This document shows, in pieces, positions 742 through 9,874 of a stretch of DNA of 64,000 bases. Within the stretch, counting starts at the first letter, position 1. The number at the start of each line of letters is the position of its first letter. The position numbers were made by a program, and so were the translations under genes. The notes under the pieces are model-generated. The model saw only the letters and a list, made by a program, of their open reading frames with translations. It was not told where the DNA came from and ran no database searches. This stretch comes from Gemmatimonadota bacterium. GTDB taxonomy: Bacteria > Latescibacterota > UBA2968 > UBA8231. The stretch is from assembly GCA_018672475.1 (NCBI GenBank), contig JABHFS010000146.1, forward strand, positions 1 to 64,000. The letters are read 5' to 3'.

Positions 742-777
742 GGCAGGCAGGGGCCGATAAGGCTGCTGCCTTTTTTT
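742..777 (+). terminator. Rho-independent terminator after the EIIA gene
   Basis: A stem with a one-base bulge (GGCAGGCAG against CTGCTGCC, loop including GGGCCGATAAGG) is followed directly by TTTTTTT at 771-777. It separates the EIIA gene from the repair operon starting at 872. Confidence 0.65.
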
Positions 778-871: not shown

Positions 872-2950
872 ATGAATATGGCCCCCGAATTCAACCGGGC
901 AATCAATAGCTCGTTGAACGAGAAATACACCTATTTTCTCGCCGGCCCCTTGGTCGCCGGGCAACGGCAGGCCTTGATTGTGCGTTTGCGCGTCTTACTC
1001 GAAGCGGGAGTGCCCGGTTATGCGATCTTGGTGCTGTTGCCGGATCGGGCGACGGCTCGCCGTTTTCGTCAACAGGTCGACGAGTTAGATCTCGGGCCTT
1101 ATGGGGCGGTCGATTTACAGACCTATTATGGACTGGCGAGCCGACTGATCCGCCTGTTCTGGCCATTGGTCGCAGACAGCGCTGGCTTTGCTGCGCCGGA
1201 GCGTCCTCCAGTTTTCCTCAATTACGAGACAGCCCAGTACCTCATGGGCCAGTTAAGCGAACCATTGTTGGCCCAGGGGTATTTTGAAGGGCTGTCGATG
1301 AGGCCGCAGCGAATTATTTCCCAATTGCTCGATAATTTGAACAAAGCGGCTGTTGCGGGTTTTGCATTGGGCGAAGTCGCGCCCAGGCTAGCTCAGGCCT
1401 GGACAGGTGAAGCAAGCCGTTTGCGTTTATACGAACATGTGCAAATCTGTATTGATCTATATCGTGGCCATTGTCTACAGCACGGTCTGCTCGACGCCTC
1501 GTTGGTCTTTGAGGTCTTTAATCGGCACCTAGTCGCCAAGGATGAATTCTGGCGTTATTTCACTGAACGATTTCGCCATCTTTTGGTCGACTCGAGCGAG
1601 GAAATGGTTCCGGTTGCACACGATCTGGTTCGTCGATTGTTACACCAATCCGATTCGGCGTTGTTGACAGGAGATGTGCAGGCGGGTTTTAGAATTTTCC
1701 TCGGCGTCGATGCTCCGGGTGCCGCTGAGTTGCAGGCGGAGTGTCAAGAATCGATAGTAGTCGAACCGGCGAATTGTGCCGATCCGCACCTCACCGCTTT
1801 TGCCGGTCGCATTGGCGAAAAACTCGGACAGGGCCGAACCGTGGAAAGCGCTGGGTCGCCCCGACTGGCGGTCGTCGATTTGGTGCAGACCCGTTATCGA
1901 TCGCAAATGATTGAGTCTGTAGCTCGGCAAATAATCGAGTTGATAAATAAAGGTGTCGCGCCGGGTGAAATCGCCATTGTCGCGCCGCATGCCGATGGGG
2001 TGTTGCGCTTTCTTTTGGCGGAGACCTTTCGCGCCGCAGATATTCCTTTCGCGGTGATCCGGCGCTATGAAACTCTGCGCGAAGAGCCGGTAGTGCGGGC
2101 CTGTTTGACTTTGGCGATACTCGCTCACCCCGAATGGGGACAAAGTCTGTCGGTCTTTGATCTTGCAGAAGCCTTGGAACGAGCGCTCAAGCCACTCGAT
2201 CCGCTACGCGCCGAACTTGTCGCCCGCCATCTCTATGATTTGCGTTCAGGGCAGCTCAAAAATGCCAGTGAATTGAACGCCAAGATGCGCGAGCGGATCG
2301 GTTTTGCCGCCGTCGAGCGATATGAAATATTGCGCGAGTGGCTCGAATCCTATCGGGCGGAAGAGCCCGGGGCCTTTGACCATTTTTTACGCCGACTATT
2401 TGGTGAAATCCTCTCGAACTGCGAACTGGAACCGGAGGACGCGCAAGTTTATAGTAAGCTTATCGCCTCGGCTTCTTCATTTCGCCAGGCGGCCCCAGCG
2501 ATGGACCTCAAGGGCACAGACATTGGCAAGCGCTATGTCGAAATGGTGCTCGCCGGAGTGGTCGCCGCGCAATACCTGACCGATGTCGACCTCGAGGAGG
2601 CGCCGGAGTCGATCGCCTTGGTCGCACCGGTTTATACCTACCTGCTCTCCGGACATGTGGCCCGCTATCAATTCTGGCTGGATATCGGTTCGATGAGTTG
2701 GTGGGACCCGTTGCACCAACCACTGACCAACCACTATGTGCTAGCACGTCGCTGGAATCAGGATGAACGTTGGACGGATGCGGTTGATTTTTCGATTCGC
2801 AACCAAAACCTATATCGCCTGGTGCGGGGACTGTGTCTGCGATGTCGAGGCGGTATCTATCTTTGCGCCAGTGACTCTGAGGGGCGGGGCGAAGTGCAGG
2901 ATGGTCCATTGATGATGGCCGTGCAACAGGTATTGCAGGAGCGCGCGTGA
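872..2950 (+). CDS. AddB-like inactivated superfamily I helicase-fold protein
   Basis: A 692-residue protein resembling the helicase-like half of AddB or RecC: a UvrD-like fold that has lost ATPase motifs. The Walker A position near residues 23-32 reads FLAGPLVAGQ, lacking the GxGKT lysine. The DEAD-box position near residue 236 reads LLVDSSEEM instead of the usual VDEAQE-type sequence. Known AddB proteins use such a domain to scan DNA and recognise Chi-like sites, and AddB also carries a C-terminal Fe-S nuclease. That nuclease is missing here but is encoded separately two genes downstream. Start ATG 872 has no clear ribosome site, and ATG 878 is an alternative. The stop overlaps the next start by 4 nt (GTGA). 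First gene of a four-gene repair operon. Confidence 0.65.
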   Translation: MNMAPEFNRAINSSLNEKYTYFLAGPLVAGQRQALIVRLRVLLEAGVPGYAILVLLPDRATARRFRQQVDELDLGPYGAVDLQTYYGLASRLIRLFWPLVADSAGFAAPERPPVFLNYETAQYLMGQLSEPLLAQGYFEGLSMRPQRIISQLLDNLNKAAVAGFALGEVAPRLAQAWTGEASRLRLYEHVQICIDLYRGHCLQHGLLDASLVFEVFNRHLVAKDEFWRYFTERFRHLLVDSSEEMVPVAHDLVRRLLHQSDSALLTGDVQAGFRIFLGVDAPGAAELQAECQESIVVEPANCADPHLTAFAGRIGEKLGQGRTVESAGSPRLAVVDLVQTRYRSQMIESVARQIIELINKGVAPGEIAIVAPHADGVLRFLLAETFRAADIPFAVIRRYETLREEPVVRACLTLAILAHPEWGQSLSVFDLAEALERALKPLDPLRAELVARHLYDLRSGQLKNASELNAKMRERIGFAAVERYEILREWLESYRAEEPGAFDHFLRRLFGEILSNCELEPEDAQVYSKLIASASSFRQAAPAMDLKGTDIGKRYVEMVLAGVVAAQYLTDVDLEEAPESIALVAPVYTYLLSGHVARYQFWLDIGSMSWWDPLHQPLTNHYVLARRWNQDERWTDAVDFSIRNQNLYRLVRGLCLRCRGGIYLCASDSEGRGEVQDGPLMMAVQQVLQERA

Positions 2951-5154
2951 ACCAATTCCAACCGCGCGAAGGTCAGCGTCAAATTCTTGACTATCAAGGC
3001 GGAAAGATGGGCGTATCGGCCGTGCCGGGCAGTGGTAAGACGGCGACAATTGTCGCTCTGGCGACCCGCTTGATTGCGGAAGGGCGCACCGAGGGCGGCC
3101 AGGTGCTGATCGTCACCTACCAGAATGCCGCCGTCGACAATATTCGCTCGCGAATCCGCCAGCGATTAGAAGAGATGGACCTGTTGCAAATCGGCTATGA
3201 TGTCCGCACGTTGCACAGCCTGTCTTATGGCATCGTCCAGGCCAATTCGGGCTTGGCCGGCACTACGGCTGAATTCGCGGTATTGGACGAGCGTTCCAGT
3301 GGGGATTTGCTCGACAAAGCGGTGCGTATCTGGAACGCGGAAAATAAGGGTATTTGGGGGCGTCTTGGGCCGGGTGATTATATAGATGAGCGGTGGGAAC
3401 GAGAATGGCGCGATATAGCACGCAAGGTGGCCAAGACCGTTATTACCAGCGCTAAGAATCGCCGGTTGCGGGCGGAAGATTTATTGGCGAGGATCGGCGA
3501 GGGCGGCGGCGACGAACTCAATCAATTTTTGCGGATCGGTGCCGGGATATACCAACTCTACCAACAGCAGATAGAGACGATCGGCGGTCTTGATTTTGAT
3601 GATTTGGTGTGGAGAGCAGCCGAACTGTTAGACCAGTACCCTGACCTGTGTGCTCGCTACCGACAGCGTTGGCCGGTGGTACTAGAGGACGAAGCACAGG
3701 ACAGCGTGCCGCTGCAAGAAGAGTTGCTCTCCCTCCTGGCGGGCCCCGAGGGCAACTGGATCCGGGTCGGCGATCCGAATCAGGCCATTATGAGCACATT
3801 TACCGCCGCGGACCCGCGTTATCTTAGGCGATTTCTCGAACGCGACGATGTCGAGGCGCAGGAGATGGCCATTTCCGGTCGCTGTGCACCGATGATTATC
3901 GATCTGGCCAATTTTCTCGTCGAATGGGTTTCGGTCGAACACCCACTCGAAGAAGTCCGCGAAAGGGCGTTCCGCCAACAGCTTATACAGCCGACGGAGC
4001 GCGGTGACCCGCAGCAGAATCCGGACGACGCGGACAGCGCGATCGGCTTTCGGGAATACAATAACCGCCAAGAGGAATTTTCTAGTATAGCTCGCAGGTC
4101 CCATGCTTTCGTCGGCAAGTATCCCGATCTCACCGTGGCCATTTTGGTGTCGACCAATCGCATCGGTTATGAGATGGCCGAGCATTTGCGCGAGGCCGGG
4201 GCCGATTTCGACGAAGTCTTGCAAAGCCCGCGATCGGCGCGGCAGGTTAGTGAGGCGTTGTGCCAAGTTGTTCAGTTTCTCGCCGAACCGCTGGGGCGTA
4301 ATCACCTAGAAAAAGCCTATCGGGCCTTGCTCGGTTTCTGGCCCGGACCGACGGGCCCGGGAGAGGAAGAAACGGTCGCGACATTATTGCGCAGTTGTTA
4401 TCGACCTGAGGCGCTGCTTTATCCGGCGGCAGGAACCAAGATGGAAGAGGCCTTGCCGCCGGTCGATAAAGTCGAAGTGCAGGACTTGGAGGCGATAGCC
4501 CATCTTTGTAGTTATTTGCGACGTTGGCTCAGGGCGGTGTCGTTGCCGGTGGACCAGTTGTTGATGACCGTCGCCCAGGATCTTTTGCAAGAGGGCGATT
4601 TGGCTATGGCGCAGAATTTAGCAACTTATTTACGCACTCGCGCCGATCAGAACATGGATTGGCGCTTGCCCGAATTGGCCCGTGAGTTAAGCCTCGCGGT
4701 CCAGGGCAAAGCCGGGGTATTGGCCGAAGAAGAGGATGTCTTCGCCCCGCGACCGGGGCGGATCTCTCTGACGACGATGCATAAGGCTAAGGGGATGGAG
4801 TGGGATTTGGTCTATGTCATGGGGGTTGGTGGCGATTGGTTTCCCCATGATCTCGATGCTCGATTTTTCGGCGAATACGAATTCCTCGGTGGCGATCCCT
4901 GCGAGGATGCGCGGGCAGAGTTGTTAGGGCTGACAGGCGAGATCGGTTCCGTGCGGTTGTCGGCGACGGATCTCGCCCATGTCGAGGTTATCGCTGAACG
5001 CTTGCGTTTACTCTATGTCGCCATCACTCGGGCGCGGCGTTATCTGGCGATTAGTTGGAGTCGCGAGATACCGAGGGCGACGCGCTCATTTGCCGTACCG
5101 GCCGCAGAGTCGTTCCGACAGTTGGAAGCCTATTACCAATTGCAACGTCGATGA
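2947..5154 (+). CDS. UvrD/AddA-like ATP-dependent DNA helicase
   Basis: A 735-residue superfamily I helicase with intact motifs. Walker A is PGSGKT (residues 27-32), and motif II is VLEDEAQD near 244-251. The Q-containing motif GDPNQAIM follows, then the late motif TTMHKAKGMEWD near 608-619 and motif VI YVAITRARR near 690. Such enzymes translocate 3'-5' on single-stranded DNA using ATP. AddA normally has a C-terminal nuclease domain, but this protein ends soon after motif VI and has none, so it is either a UvrD-type helicase or the motor of a split AddAB-like complex. GTG start overlaps the upstream TGA, and its own stop overlaps the next ATG (ATGA), implying translational coupling with its partners. 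Confidence 0.85.
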   Translation: MNQFQPREGQRQILDYQGGKMGVSAVPGSGKTATIVALATRLIAEGRTEGGQVLIVTYQNAAVDNIRSRIRQRLEEMDLLQIGYDVRTLHSLSYGIVQANSGLAGTTAEFAVLDERSSGDLLDKAVRIWNAENKGIWGRLGPGDYIDERWEREWRDIARKVAKTVITSAKNRRLRAEDLLARIGEGGGDELNQFLRIGAGIYQLYQQQIETIGGLDFDDLVWRAAELLDQYPDLCARYRQRWPVVLEDEAQDSVPLQEELLSLLAGPEGNWIRVGDPNQAIMSTFTAADPRYLRRFLERDDVEAQEMAISGRCAPMIIDLANFLVEWVSVEHPLEEVRERAFRQQLIQPTERGDPQQNPDDADSAIGFREYNNRQEEFSSIARRSHAFVGKYPDLTVAILVSTNRIGYEMAEHLREAGADFDEVLQSPRSARQVSEALCQVVQFLAEPLGRNHLEKAYRALLGFWPGPTGPGEEETVATLLRSCYRPEALLYPAAGTKMEEALPPVDKVEVQDLEAIAHLCSYLRRWLRAVSLPVDQLLMTVAQDLLQEGDLAMAQNLATYLRTRADQNMDWRLPELARELSLAVQGKAGVLAEEEDVFAPRPGRISLTTMHKAKGMEWDLVYVMGVGGDWFPHDLDARFFGEYEFLGGDPCEDARAELLGLTGEIGSVRLSATDLAHVEVIAERLRLLYVAITRARRYLAISWSREIPRATRSFAVPAAESFRQLEAYYQLQRR

Positions 5155-5954
5155 TAAACAAGGGATTCAAATTCAGCCAAAGCTCGCTAACGACCTTCAA
5201 GCAATGTCGGCGCCGGTTCTTACTGCGTTATTTGCAGCACATGCAATGGCCCGCCCCGTTGACCGATCATTTGAGCGAGTGGGAGCAAACTATCCAGCGC
5301 GGCTTGTTTTTTCACCAGTTCATCCTGCAGGAGAGCTTGGGTTTGCATGTCGAGGCCGCGATACACAAGAGCGATGATCCGCTGCTGCGAACTTGGTGGG
5401 ACAATTGGCGCAAGCAGGCTCCGGATATGCCGCGAGGAGAGCTTTTCAGTGAGACGATGCTCTCGGTACCCTTCGGCGAGCGCCGTCTGGTGGCGAAGCT
5501 CGACCGAGTGATTTTTGCAGAAGACGGTCGGGTATTGATATTCGATTGGAAAACAGGGCGACGCAAACCGAAGCAGGCCGAATATGTCGATAATTGGCAA
5601 ACCCTTGTCTACCGCTTCGTGGTAGTCGAAGCTGGGGCTCTTTTAACCGGGGGGCACCCGGTGGATCCGGCTAATGTTTCGCTGATCTACTGGCACGCGC
5701 AATATCCTCAGGCAATACAGCCCATTATTTATTCGTCCGCAGAGCATGAGGCTGCACGAAATCGATTGACGCAGAAGATGGCCGAGATCGAGGGATTGCC
5801 AGATGAAGCGGCCTATGCAAAAACAGAAGATCTAACGGAGTGCCGCCGTTGCGAATATCATACGTATTGCGAGCGGGTTTCACCGCGAGGCGAAGACTGG
5901 GATATCGATGAGGACGAGCTGGATTGGGATCTATTGCCTGAGGCGGAGCTCTGA
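5151..5954 (+). CDS. PD-(D/E)XK nuclease with AddB-type Fe-S cysteines
   Basis: A 267-residue stand-alone nuclease of the RecB/AddB C-terminal type. The active site is visible as Asp118 (AKLDRV), Asp132 and Lys134 (IFDWKTG) and Gln150 (NWQTLVY). Cys19 and a C-x2-C-x5-C group (Cys231, 234, 240) match the four cysteines that hold a 4Fe-4S cluster around the nuclease domain of AddB. It would cut DNA strands unwound by the helicase encoded just upstream. ATG 5151 overlaps the upstream stop (ATGA). In-frame starts further upstream (for example 5055) would lie inside the helicase gene and add residues unrelated to the family. The acidic C-terminal tail (about 20 residues rich in D and E) is a local peculiarity. 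Confidence 0.88.
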   Translation: MINKGFKFSQSSLTTFKQCRRRFLLRYLQHMQWPAPLTDHLSEWEQTIQRGLFFHQFILQESLGLHVEAAIHKSDDPLLRTWWDNWRKQAPDMPRGELFSETMLSVPFGERRLVAKLDRVIFAEDGRVLIFDWKTGRRKPKQAEYVDNWQTLVYRFVVVEAGALLTGGHPVDPANVSLIYWHAQYPQAIQPIIYSSAEHEAARNRLTQKMAEIEGLPDEAAYAKTEDLTECRRCEYHTYCERVSPRGEDWDIDEDELDWDLLPEAEL

Positions 5955-5956
5955 CC

Positions 5957-7861
5957 GTGGAGTGGAAAGATACCGGGACCGCCCCCGCACCAGAACTTGC
6001 TGCGCGCTTGGGGGTCTCGGACTTGGTAGCCCAGCTGCTCTCTGCGCGTGGACTTGGCGATGAAATCGCAAGCAAAAATAGGTTGAATCCGCTAGCGGTC
6101 GAAGATTGGCCCTGGTCGGATGTTACGGGTTTAGACGAATTGCTGGCGGTTTTAGCTGAGGCGAAGGAGGTCGGGCAGGGGATTTTAGTGTGTGGAGGGC
6201 AGAGCGCAGGGGATCAAGTCGCCATGGCCCTCTGTGTTGGGGGGTTGCGGCAGTTTGGTTTTGCGGTGTCGTATTGTTTAGAGGGCCTGGCAAATTCAGT
6301 CGACATCACCGCGTTTGGTACCCAGTCTGATGCTAAATATTTGCAGTTGAAGTTAGGGCTTGGCGTAGAGGCGACAGGGGTGATTTCGCTTACTGATCCG
6401 AGTGCTCAGATAAGCGTGCGGATAAGCGCGGAGCCCGACGAAATCAAAGGGGACCATCCTTTGTGGCTGGCTGGCCGGGCGGGGCTCTGCTGGTGGCTGC
6501 TAAGAGCGCTGGCCCAAGTGCATAATGGCGGTGGGGAAATGCGCGAGTTTGCTGATCTTATCGCCTTGTCATCGATTGTCGACGGCGCGGCGATGCTGGG
6601 ATTGAATCGTTCGCTGACCCAGTGGGGGGGGGCGAAACTCATTTATCGTCCCAGGACTGGTCTCGCGGCTTTGATGCGGGCAGCCAAGCTCATGCCCCCG
6701 GTTCTAGTGTCAAATAAATATATCGATAGTTCGTTAGGTGCCCGATTGCGTGCGGCGGAACGAAGAGGGCTCGCGGCCACGTCAATCGATTTGCTATTGG
6801 CTGAAGAGGCCGGGCTGGCGGACGAATGGGCTGTGGATGTCGAAAACGGTTATCGGGAAGAACGCTTGGCGCAGCGGCAAGAAGAGATGGTGCCGGAGAG
6901 AGAGTCATTGGCGATCGAGGCTTATATTGGCCTGGCCCAAATGCGGCCGGCTTTGGGCCATGAGATCTCCCGGCTCGGACCTTTTGGCCGAGGAAACCCC
7001 GAGCCGCTGTTGGCGAGCCGCAGGGTTCGCTTGGTCAATGTAACGAGTACAGGGCTTTCGCGCCGTCATACTCGTTTGCTCGTTGAGGACGAGGAGGGGC
7101 ATAGCCTTTCTGGGCTGTGGCGGTACAAACAACCTGAGGAGGTGCCGGGCGCTTGGGGAGATATCGCGTTCAATCTGCGGCTGGATTATTATCGCGGCAG
7201 CGAAAATGTGCAGTTGGAGATTGTTGCTTTCAGGCTTTTGGTGGCGGAAGAAGATACCGAATTAAAGCCGGAACTGCCTTTCAGTGTAGAGGATAAGCGC
7301 ACTGCCGGCGATCGTATGGGCGAACTCGCGAAATTGTTAGCGAGAGACGCGAGACTACAGATCTGGGCGGAAGCAGGTGCGTTTCCCGTGGCCGCGATAG
7401 CACGCGATAAGCTGCAGCGGGGGAAGATGTTGGTCCTCTGGACGGCTCCTCCGGGGCCAAGTATTCTGCGGGAAGCACTTGAACGAGTCGGGCCTAGCAA
7501 AGTCGTGTTGCTATCAGCTGAAAGAAACACGGTCGCGCCCGGTGATTTTTTGCGCCACTTAGGCGGCTTGGTCAAATGGATACTTGCCAACCGGGATGCA
7601 ACGGTAGGAATAACTGAGTTGGCGGGGCGTCTTGGCGAAATGAATGCGACGGTATTAGCCGGTCTCGAGTTGTTAGCCTTCAAGGGGCTATTGGGGTATC
7701 GCGAAGAAGGAAAGCGGTTACATTTTTCCCGAGAAGCCAACCCTGGAGTGCAAGACCCGGAGCGTTTAGGGCATCTATTGGCGGAGTCAGCGGCTTATCG
7801 AAGATATTTCGCGCAAGCACCGGCGGTTGAGATACTGCAGTTGTCGACTGATTCTATATAA
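5957..7861 (+). CDS. RecJ-like protein with lost DHH active site
   Basis: A 634-residue protein that aligns by eye with RecJ single-strand exonuclease along much of its length but is catalytically degenerate. The first metal motif (GDYDxDG in RecJ) reads CGGQSAG at residues 79-85. The DHH motif reads TDPS at 146-149. The DHHA1 region with its GGH signature appears absent. The later RecJ OB-fold entry motif is intact (LGPFGRGNPEP, about 342-352). A roughly 200-residue C-terminal extension contains a predicted winged-helix-like stretch near 540-580. It starts with GTG 3 nt after the nuclease stop, so it is the last gene of the repair operon. A G9 tract lies at 6624-6632. It may have a structural or DNA-binding role; no enzymatic function is supported. 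Confidence 0.7.
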   Translation: MEWKDTGTAPAPELAARLGVSDLVAQLLSARGLGDEIASKNRLNPLAVEDWPWSDVTGLDELLAVLAEAKEVGQGILVCGGQSAGDQVAMALCVGGLRQFGFAVSYCLEGLANSVDITAFGTQSDAKYLQLKLGLGVEATGVISLTDPSAQISVRISAEPDEIKGDHPLWLAGRAGLCWWLLRALAQVHNGGGEMREFADLIALSSIVDGAAMLGLNRSLTQWGGAKLIYRPRTGLAALMRAAKLMPPVLVSNKYIDSSLGARLRAAERRGLAATSIDLLLAEEAGLADEWAVDVENGYREERLAQRQEEMVPERESLAIEAYIGLAQMRPALGHEISRLGPFGRGNPEPLLASRRVRLVNVTSTGLSRRHTRLLVEDEEGHSLSGLWRYKQPEEVPGAWGDIAFNLRLDYYRGSENVQLEIVAFRLLVAEEDTELKPELPFSVEDKRTAGDRMGELAKLLARDARLQIWAEAGAFPVAAIARDKLQRGKMLVLWTAPPGPSILREALERVGPSKVVLLSAERNTVAPGDFLRHLGGLVKWILANRDATVGITELAGRLGEMNATVLAGLELLAFKGLLGYREEGKRLHFSREANPGVQDPERLGHLLAESAAYRRYFAQAPAVEILQLSTDSI

Positions 7862-7936: not shown

Positions 7937-9874
7937 TCAGCCGAGGATGAAGACCAGGCCCGTTACTCCTGTGAACCAACTGACAATTAACCAGAATCCG
8001 GCTGAACCAAAAGCACCCAATACTGATCCGAGGAAGAGCGGACGTAGACGCGTATAGAGAAATGCCCCACCGTATTTGAGGATCAAGGCTTTGCAAAGCC
8101 AAGCGATAAAGACGGAGAACCACACGTGAAATACGGGGTGGGTCAAACCCAAGGTCAAGCCGATGGGGTGAATAGGAAAACCGACGAATCGGGCTTTGAT
8201 AAAAGTTAGTATACCCATTAGTAGCGCACCTATGCCGGTAAAGCCAAGATGCCAGAACTGGACCGGTTCCGGATTCTTGATATTGCGGGAGATCCAATTG
8301 CCCGTATAAGAGGGGAGACCGTTGAATTGCCAACCGCTGAGATTGATACCGCCGTATTGGTACGATAGCTCGATGACGGCGTAAGCGGAGCCGCAAAGAG
8401 TGATTATGATGGCCAAGATGATGGCCCAGAATAGCCTGCGGGATTCCAAGCGGGTGACTTCGGCCAATTTTAGCCCGGTGGCTGCGGAGGCCATGACAAA
8501 GGTGCGAATATCGGCAGACCAAGCGAAATTGAGCCCGAGGGCTGTTAAGCCGGCGGGGCCGACGACGGCAGATCCCATGGTGTTAACGGTAAATACAGGA
8601 GAACAAACGGTAGCCCGACCGTAGGCCAGGCCGGTTTGCGAAACAATGCGGGCTAAGCCAATAAAAATCACTAAGGACGACAGCAGAAATACCAGCGCGG
8701 TAGGTAGATTCATCCCCGCCATGGTCAACCAGATCAAGCATAGGCCAAAACCGCCGGTTGCCCCGAATGTAGCGGCCCGATAAGAGAGCAATTCTCCACT
8801 ATCGTCAATCGACTCGTCACCGCGAAAGGCTTTGCGGAAGACGTCCCTGAGGTGCTCCCGGCTATTCCAGAAACTGGAGAAGACAAGGAAGAATAATGCT
8901 CCCAAGGCGATATGGGCGACACTCGGCGGGGCTGGATCGGAAAAAGGTTGGATCGGTCCTATACTCCAACCAAGCATGCGTTGGATGCCTGTTTGCAATA
9001 GCGCTAAAAATGCGAAAAACCACACGCCAAAAGAAACATCGAGGCTGAGTAAGTAGGCTAAACCTATTACTTCGAAACGGGGCGTGCAGTTCATGTAGAC
9101 CGAATTGCGCATAATTGGCACGATTAGATTCAGGTCTATGCGCGGAATGAAGTTATAGAAGGCGTGTAGCCCGTTGATTAGGTTAATCAAGAAGGGCAGC
9201 GAGAAGCCAACCCAAGTGAGGTAATTGCGGAAAATCGCCGGTAAAAACTTATCCTTGGTTTGTTGGCTCATCTCCATCGGTAAGGTGGCTAATGGAAAGA
9301 GTAAGCGCTCGCGTTCAACCCATTGTTTGCGTAGCATGACCAATAGGCACAGGCTGACGCAATAGAGGGTTGTGACGAAGAGGCCCCAGCTGCAAAGTGG
9401 GATAAGCCAAGTCGCCCAAGGCAGGCCAGCACCGTGCGTCCCCCCTTCAAAGAGCTGCCAGATTGCGTCCTGCTCATCGGGTATTAGCCAGACGGGCAAG
9501 TGCGGTTGGATCAGAGATATCCACTCGTTTTCAGGGGTGGCGTAGTAGAAAAAACCCGCCATTAGCGGGATGAGATTCATAGTGAAACCCCAAGAAGGAA
9601 TGGCGCAAGCTACGATCATCATTATGTAGATCGTAGCCAATTCGCCCGTTCGCAGGGCTGAACCTGTCAATATTTTAGCGAGGGGGTTTATAAGTAGGGT
9701 TAAAATGAAAAATATAAAAATCGCAGCACCGGCTGAAAAATCGGCAGCCATCGGGGAGCCCCTTAGGACTAAGACGCCATAGGGCTCACCCATGGCGATC
9801 GCCAAACAACAGATCAAGCCAATGGAAACGGCTCTAGCCGATACGCCACGTGATTGTGATGCCGGTCCGTCCAT
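7937..9874 (-). CDS. Polytopic membrane protein, DUF6785/OPT-like
   Basis: A 645-residue integral membrane protein with about 14 hydrophobic segments. A cytoplasmic or periplasmic loop near residues 110-150 carries conserved-looking aromatic and acidic residues (YYATPENEW). The pattern, including the N-terminal SARAVSIGLICCLAIAMGEPYGV segment start, resembles the DUF6785/DUF6784 proteins, which are distantly related to oligopeptide transporters and common in candidate phyla and Planctomycetes. No substrate is known. The ATG at 9874 is preceded by AAAGG at a proper distance. It is convergent with the RecJ-like gene and divergent from the secreted CBM9-like gene, and seems monocistronic. The family assignment is from memory of sequence style. 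Confidence 0.6.
   Translation of the reverse strand: MDGPASQSRGVSARAVSIGLICCLAIAMGEPYGVLVLRGSPMAADFSAGAAIFIFFILTLLINPLAKILTGSALRTGELATIYIMMIVACAIPSWGFTMNLIPLMAGFFYYATPENEWISLIQPHLPVWLIPDEQDAIWQLFEGGTHGAGLPWATWLIPLCSWGLFVTTLYCVSLCLLVMLRKQWVERERLLFPLATLPMEMSQQTKDKFLPAIFRNYLTWVGFSLPFLINLINGLHAFYNFIPRIDLNLIVPIMRNSVYMNCTPRFEVIGLAYLLSLDVSFGVWFFAFLALLQTGIQRMLGWSIGPIQPFSDPAPPSVAHIALGALFFLVFSSFWNSREHLRDVFRKAFRGDESIDDSGELLSYRAATFGATGGFGLCLIWLTMAGMNLPTALVFLLSSLVIFIGLARIVSQTGLAYGRATVCSPVFTVNTMGSAVVGPAGLTALGLNFAWSADIRTFVMASAATGLKLAEVTRLESRRLFWAIILAIIITLCGSAYAVIELSYQYGGINLSGWQFNGLPSYTGNWISRNIKNPEPVQFWHLGFTGIGALLMGILTFIKARFVGFPIHPIGLTLGLTHPVFHVWFSVFIAWLCKALILKYGGAFLYTRLRPLFLGSVLGAFGSAGFWLIVSWFTGVTGLVFILG

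Follow-up and report, generated by a model that had tools for sequence, protein, structure and literature searches.

A candidate RecJ-derived pseudonuclease encoded in an accessory AddAB-like helicase-nuclease operon of Latescibacterota

The window, as the whole analysed stretch of 64,000 nucleotides is called here, carries close to its beginning an operon that encodes an AddB-like protein, an AddA-like helicase, a PD-(D/E)XK nuclease and, as the last gene, a RecJ-like protein (Table 1). The AddB-like and AddA-like genes overlap by 4 bp, as do the AddA-like and nuclease genes, and a gap of 2 bp separates the nuclease gene from the RecJ-like gene. A PTS EIIA gene lies upstream of the terminator-like hairpin that precedes the operon. 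The UvrD-helicase and PDDEXK_1 genes directly upstream of the RecJ-like gene agree with the helicase-nuclease setting to which a first-pass annotation had assigned it. The nuclease bears a DWKTG motif and Fe-S-type cysteines in its sequence, and the Pfam search found no PDDEXK domain in the AddA-like or the AddB-like protein. A gene for a large membrane protein (7937-9874, opposite strand) adjoins the operon in this genome (G000), in a second species (G005) and in the genera g5 and g7; elsewhere in the genus this position is taken by sugar-transporter genes. An assignment of the operon to a known defence system was rejected, as PADLOC reported only generic matches to a GajB-type UvrD helicase and Cas4, and no match for the RecJ-like protein.

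Table 1. Coordinates of the operon and of the features of the RecJ-like gene in the window
Feature	Position	Strand	Description	Basis
Terminator-like stem-loop and T run	759..772	+	between upstream EIIA gene and operon	consensus match only
AddB-like subunit	872..2950	+	692 aa; degenerate Walker A GPLVAGQRQ; without C-terminal nuclease domain	weak UvrD homology
AddA-like SF1 helicase	2947..5154	+	735 aa; Walker A GSGKT intact	UvrD-helicase 1.9e-44, UvrD_C 3.4e-19
Free-standing PD-(D/E)XK nuclease	5151..5954	+	267 aa (ATG 5151)	PDDEXK_1 3.7e-28
RecJ-like pseudonuclease (candidate)	5957..7861	+	GTG start, 634 aa	RecJ_OB, TIGR00644, AF2/VIA
Motif I remnant GGQSAGD, aa 80-86	6194..6214	+	three Asp ligands lost	alignments
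Motif II remnant TAFGT, aa 118-122 (TCDTG)	6308..6322	+	bridging Asp lost	alignments
Motif III (DHH) region ISLTDPS, aa 143-149	6383..6403	+	histidines lost; exact register alignment-dependent	
Motif IV Asp ligand D209	6581..6583	+	retained	alignment; ligand identity from PMC4846377
DHHA1 deletion junction, aa 297-313	6845..6895	+	about 130 aa in G011 RecJ2	alignments
RecJ OB-fold domain, aa 320-422	6914..7222	+	lowest dN/dS of the gene (0.13)	Pfam RecJ_OB
C-terminal extension, aa 429-634	7241..7858	+	common to intact cassette RecJs	alignment

Homology of the 634-aa protein to RecJ was confirmed and is well above chance. The Pfam search identified RecJ_OB (PF17768) at aa 320-422 with 58.2 bits (E 1e-15; cut-off 27 bits) and found neither DHH nor DHHA1. 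TIGR00644 recJ matched the protein with E 2.4e-22 and 78.9 bits, far below the equivalog score of 396.9. In Foldseek the AF2 model retrieved RecJ 8y30 (E 1.2e-21), and VIA aligned the two over 403 residues with Z 27.9 and an rmsd of 3.2. VIA Z-scores against solved RecJs ranged from 24 to 28, and the archaeal RecJ-Cdc45 protein (7bhi) scored 16.1. Model confidence was high over most of aa 1-111 and 170-306 and in the OB fold, and low for aa 429-634. The 36 sequences of the AF2 input alignment are all RecJ relatives; the model leans towards RecJ and is less an independent proof of the RecJ fold than a sign that the protein is compatible with it. An unrelated fold would have contradicted the first-pass annotation; the predicted one is that of RecJ, and the RecJ nature, the N-terminal framework and the preserved OB fold that it had claimed all stand.

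The two-metal site of Deinococcus radiodurans RecJ is formed by D79, D81, D83, D135, H159 and D223, and alanine at metal-binding residues nearly abolishes its activity (PMC4846377). When the alignments were inspected motif by motif, five of these six ligands were lost from the RecJ-like protein. Motif I reads GDFDVDG in intact relatives as against GGQSAGD here, and the histidines of motif III were missing in every alignment made. The only ligand kept is D209, which corresponds to D223 of D. radiodurans RecJ (PMC4846377) and does not vary among the 36 aligned sequences, of which the RecJ-like protein is one. The earlier description of the RecJ metal motifs as replaced therefore applies to motifs I, II and III, whereas the claimed loss of every metal ligand is contradicted by motif IV. 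Likewise, the reported change of DHH to DPS is right about the absent histidines, but the pairing with DPS depends on the alignment. The proposed deletion of the DHHA1 core proved correct: the whole domain with its GSARS/GSGRS and GGHPMAAG motifs, about 130 aa in comparison to intact relatives, has been removed. A short stretch after motif I with a conserved PxR is missing too, and the connecting helix no longer has its conserved N and R. Judged from these sequence features, the label "dead" is well founded. The loss of DNA-contact features on the DHHA1 side and of the connecting-helix N and R may also have weakened ssDNA binding of the classical RecJ type.

Intact forms of the gene occupy the same position in two related cassettes. 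Contig 80 of G011, which represents another genus of the family, encodes an intact RecJ of 808 aa there, and on plasmid pSR56 of Salinibacter ruber the four genes stand in the same order and the RecJ, of 785 aa, is likewise intact (NC_014028.1 10001-17884; L141 4469-12352). The AddB-like gene of the plasmid cassette is annotated merely as a hypothetical protein. Among the viral contigs, phages and plasmids searched, only Salinibacter pSR56 carried the cassette. In a RecJ tree built without the C-terminal extension, the dead proteins grouped with the cassette RecJs of G011 and Salinibacter and away from the chromosomal Latescibacterota RecJ (support 96/88), on a very long branch (3.2). The AddA-like proteins of G011 and Salinibacter are 45.5% identical, as compared to 37.4% between G011 and the window, and the RecJ proteins 47.8% as compared to 29.1%. 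Since the G011 cassette is thus closer to that of Salinibacter, the sequences suggest separate histories for the G011 and window cassettes, possibly with horizontal transfer. The AddB-like Walker A motif is kept in G011 (GPAGAGKTT) and Salinibacter (GPVGTGKTT) and degraded elsewhere in the family, apparently a change parallel to the catalytic loss in RecJ.

Of the 25 family genomes, 23 had the free nuclease gene, and the three-gene operon was seen wherever the contig allows. A RecJ-like gene follows the nuclease gene in three family genomes only (G000, G005 and G011); in about 20 relatives the operon lacks such a gene, and no remnants of it were found downstream of the nuclease gene in other family members. 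As the other three genes are thus kept without it in the majority of relatives, the RecJ-like subunit is dispensable for the operon. The genome that carries the window operon also encodes a second, intact recJ on contig 114 (527.7 bits), for which the first-pass annotation had proposed to search. Contig 8 (L233 1115-7394) bears canonical addB and addA genes of full size (1013 and 1081 aa), which makes the window operon an accessory second helicase-nuclease system.

The dead 634-aa form occurs in the second species G005 as well (contig DQLG01000364.1), with 90% identity and no stop or frameshift. An assembly artefact or contamination was rejected, as this independent genome shows the same form and synteny. 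Between the two species dN/dS of the RecJ-like gene was 0.27 (95% interval 0.18-0.375); the AddA-like gene had a value of 0.11, the nuclease gene one of 0.16 and the adjacent membrane protein gene one of 0.08. Within the gene the ratio was 0.13 in the OB fold, 0.17 over aa 71-166 and 0.59 over aa 1-70. Changes fell mainly on third codon positions (35, 29 and 75 at positions one to three). The two proteins differ at 63 amino acids, whereas 2000 neutral simulations, which applied the same number of random changes as separates the two genes, gave 93 differences on average and never fewer than 75; 99% of the simulations contained a stop. In this one species pair the RecJ-like gene is under purifying selection, which is weaker than that on its operon partners.

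These values bear on a gene on its way out, in which selection would have relaxed once RecJ became unnecessary and the copy would have been caught before its frame broke, with absence elsewhere as the end point. Patchy retention among relatives with the operon would fit such a course, as would redundancy with the intact recJ elsewhere in the genome and an evolution faster than that of the neighbours, in particular over aa 1-70. However, dN/dS is well below 1 with its whole 95% interval under 0.4, and neutral simulations yielded at least 75 amino-acid changes and nearly always a stop, in contrast to the 63 changes seen. Moreover, the catalytic loss predates the split of the two species, and the frame is intact in both. 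Ongoing decay is therefore considered unlikely. The first-pass annotation had taken relatives with intact motifs as a possible sign of a decaying gene; such relatives exist, yet the copy does not look neutral, and the dN/dS comparison it had suggested speaks against free decay. Its argument that selection retained the frame and the operon position gains weight from the sharing of both by two species.

The C-terminal extension had been described as new; this was mistaken, as alignments showed it in the intact cassette RecJs of G011 and Salinibacter. It was present in 3 of 64 genomes of the phylum. An AF2 model of the C-terminal part contained a putative winged helix at about aa 528-591 with low confidence, and Foldseek returned ArsR-like folds (E about 0.01); S. 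aureus RecJ was among many weak matches of this low-confidence model (E 0.03). The C-terminal domain of Firmicutes RecJ (PF10141) is at most a possible homologue of the extension; hhalign against one sequence was uninformative on this relation. The low-confidence ArsR-like winged helix and weak sequence matches would agree with a new role apart from the helicase-nuclease, for instance as a DNA-binding regulator acting through its C-terminus, with an operon tie that is only historical. The extension is no novelty of the dead form, though, conservation within the protein is highest in the OB fold, and only 2 bp lie between the nuclease and RecJ-like genes, so that we regard this role as rather improbable. 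Least credible is a surviving enzyme with an active site rebuilt from the retained motif IV Asp, D209, and other residues, given the loss of five of six ligands, the absence of the entire substrate-binding DHHA1 domain and the near inactivity of D. radiodurans RecJ with alanine at metal-binding residues (PMC4846377).

The explanation that we favour, with a probability of roughly 0.6, is that the protein is a non-catalytic RecJ paralogue which serves an accessory AddAB-like helicase-nuclease as its fourth subunit. It is supported by the fold, the loss of ligands and DHHA1, the operon spacing, the intact cassette RecJs and the grouping with them in the tree, the signature of selection, the presence of intact recJ and addAB genes in the same genome, the parallel loss of the AddB-like Walker A and the archaeal precedent discussed below. 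The occurrence of the dead form in two genomes only, the rarity of a RecJ-like gene behind the nuclease gene in the family, its faster evolution than the operon partners and its very long branch were counted against it, as were the lost DNA-contact features and an overall charge of the protein of about -13. The main doubt concerns the combination of only two dead sequences with a patchy distribution, which late-stage gene loss could also produce. Overall, the gene is a real, conserved pseudonuclease candidate.

In the ancestral cassette, RecJ would have trimmed the 5' strand as the helicase exposed it. The window lineage would then have lost the catalytic half and kept the DHH-like scaffold, the OB fold and the C-terminal extension. 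The kept parts may hold the displaced single strand and may tie the free PD-(D/E)XK nuclease, to which the cutting would be left, together with the AddA-like helicase and the inactive AddB-like scaffold. Complex formation and the binding of ssDNA or DNA ends by the RecJ-like protein are both presumed in this scheme. A wider proposal, which we advance tentatively and with somewhat less than even confidence, is a four-subunit, cross-phylum cassette with a dedicated RecJ, in which one Latescibacterota lineage turned both the AddB ATPase and the RecJ nuclease into structural components.

The protein shares with bacterial RecJ (TIGR00644; D. radiodurans, T. thermophilus and S. aureus structures) the order of the DHH scaffold, the connecting helix and the RecJ OB fold, and resembles it in sequence and predicted fold. 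It differs from bacterial RecJ by the missing five of six ligands and DHHA1, by its location in a helicase-nuclease operon and by a host with a separate intact RecJ. The operon resembles AddAB in its AddA-like SF1 helicase, its AddB-like partner and a RecB/Cas4-type nuclease with Fe-S-type cysteines. In AddAB, however, the nuclease domain is C-terminal on both AddA and AddB, whereas the window nuclease is a separate 267-aa gene; in addition, the AddB-like Walker A is lost in the window family, a RecJ-like fourth gene is present and canonical addAB also occurs in the genome. The pSR56 and G011 cassettes agree with it in gene order and in RecJ architecture, including the C-terminal extension, but keep the RecJ motifs, DHHA1 and the AddB-like Walker A.

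Cdc45 is a dead RecJ relative that became a structural component of the replication helicase in eukaryotes. Like Cdc45 and the inactivated archaeal RecJs (arCOG00428, arCOG00432, RecJdbd), the window protein is RecJ-derived, has a dead DHH domain that lost its catalytic residues with the frame kept, and lies in a conserved DNA-metabolism neighbourhood, although its tie to a helicase is presumed from operon linkage. Cdc45 and its archaeal homologues partner MCM and GINS in replication, whereas the neighbour here is an SF1 AddA-like helicase in a bacterial host; Cdc45, unlike the window protein, is also predicted to keep the DHHA1 domain. The inactivation of the bacterial RecJ was apparently independent of the loss in Cdc45 and archaea. 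Inactivated archaeal RecJ homologues in conserved neighbourhoods have been read as structural parts of replication complexes, and RecJ-derived dead proteins have been proposed as structural helicase partners in archaea and eukaryotes (PMC3307487). No example of a bacterial inactive RecJ in a helicase operon was found in the open-access papers searched.

The findings, made in a bacterium of the little-studied phylum Latescibacterota, point to an undescribed AddAB-like cassette of four genes, RecJ among them. If the wider proposal is true, the window protein would be a counterpart of Cdc45 on the side of bacterial DNA repair, with an active, ancestor-like form surviving in relatives. For Cdc45 and the inactive archaeal RecJs the active ancestral state is long past, whereas here active and dead forms share one gene position in living relatives, and a non-cutting role of a RecJ subunit for a helicase would therefore be directly testable.
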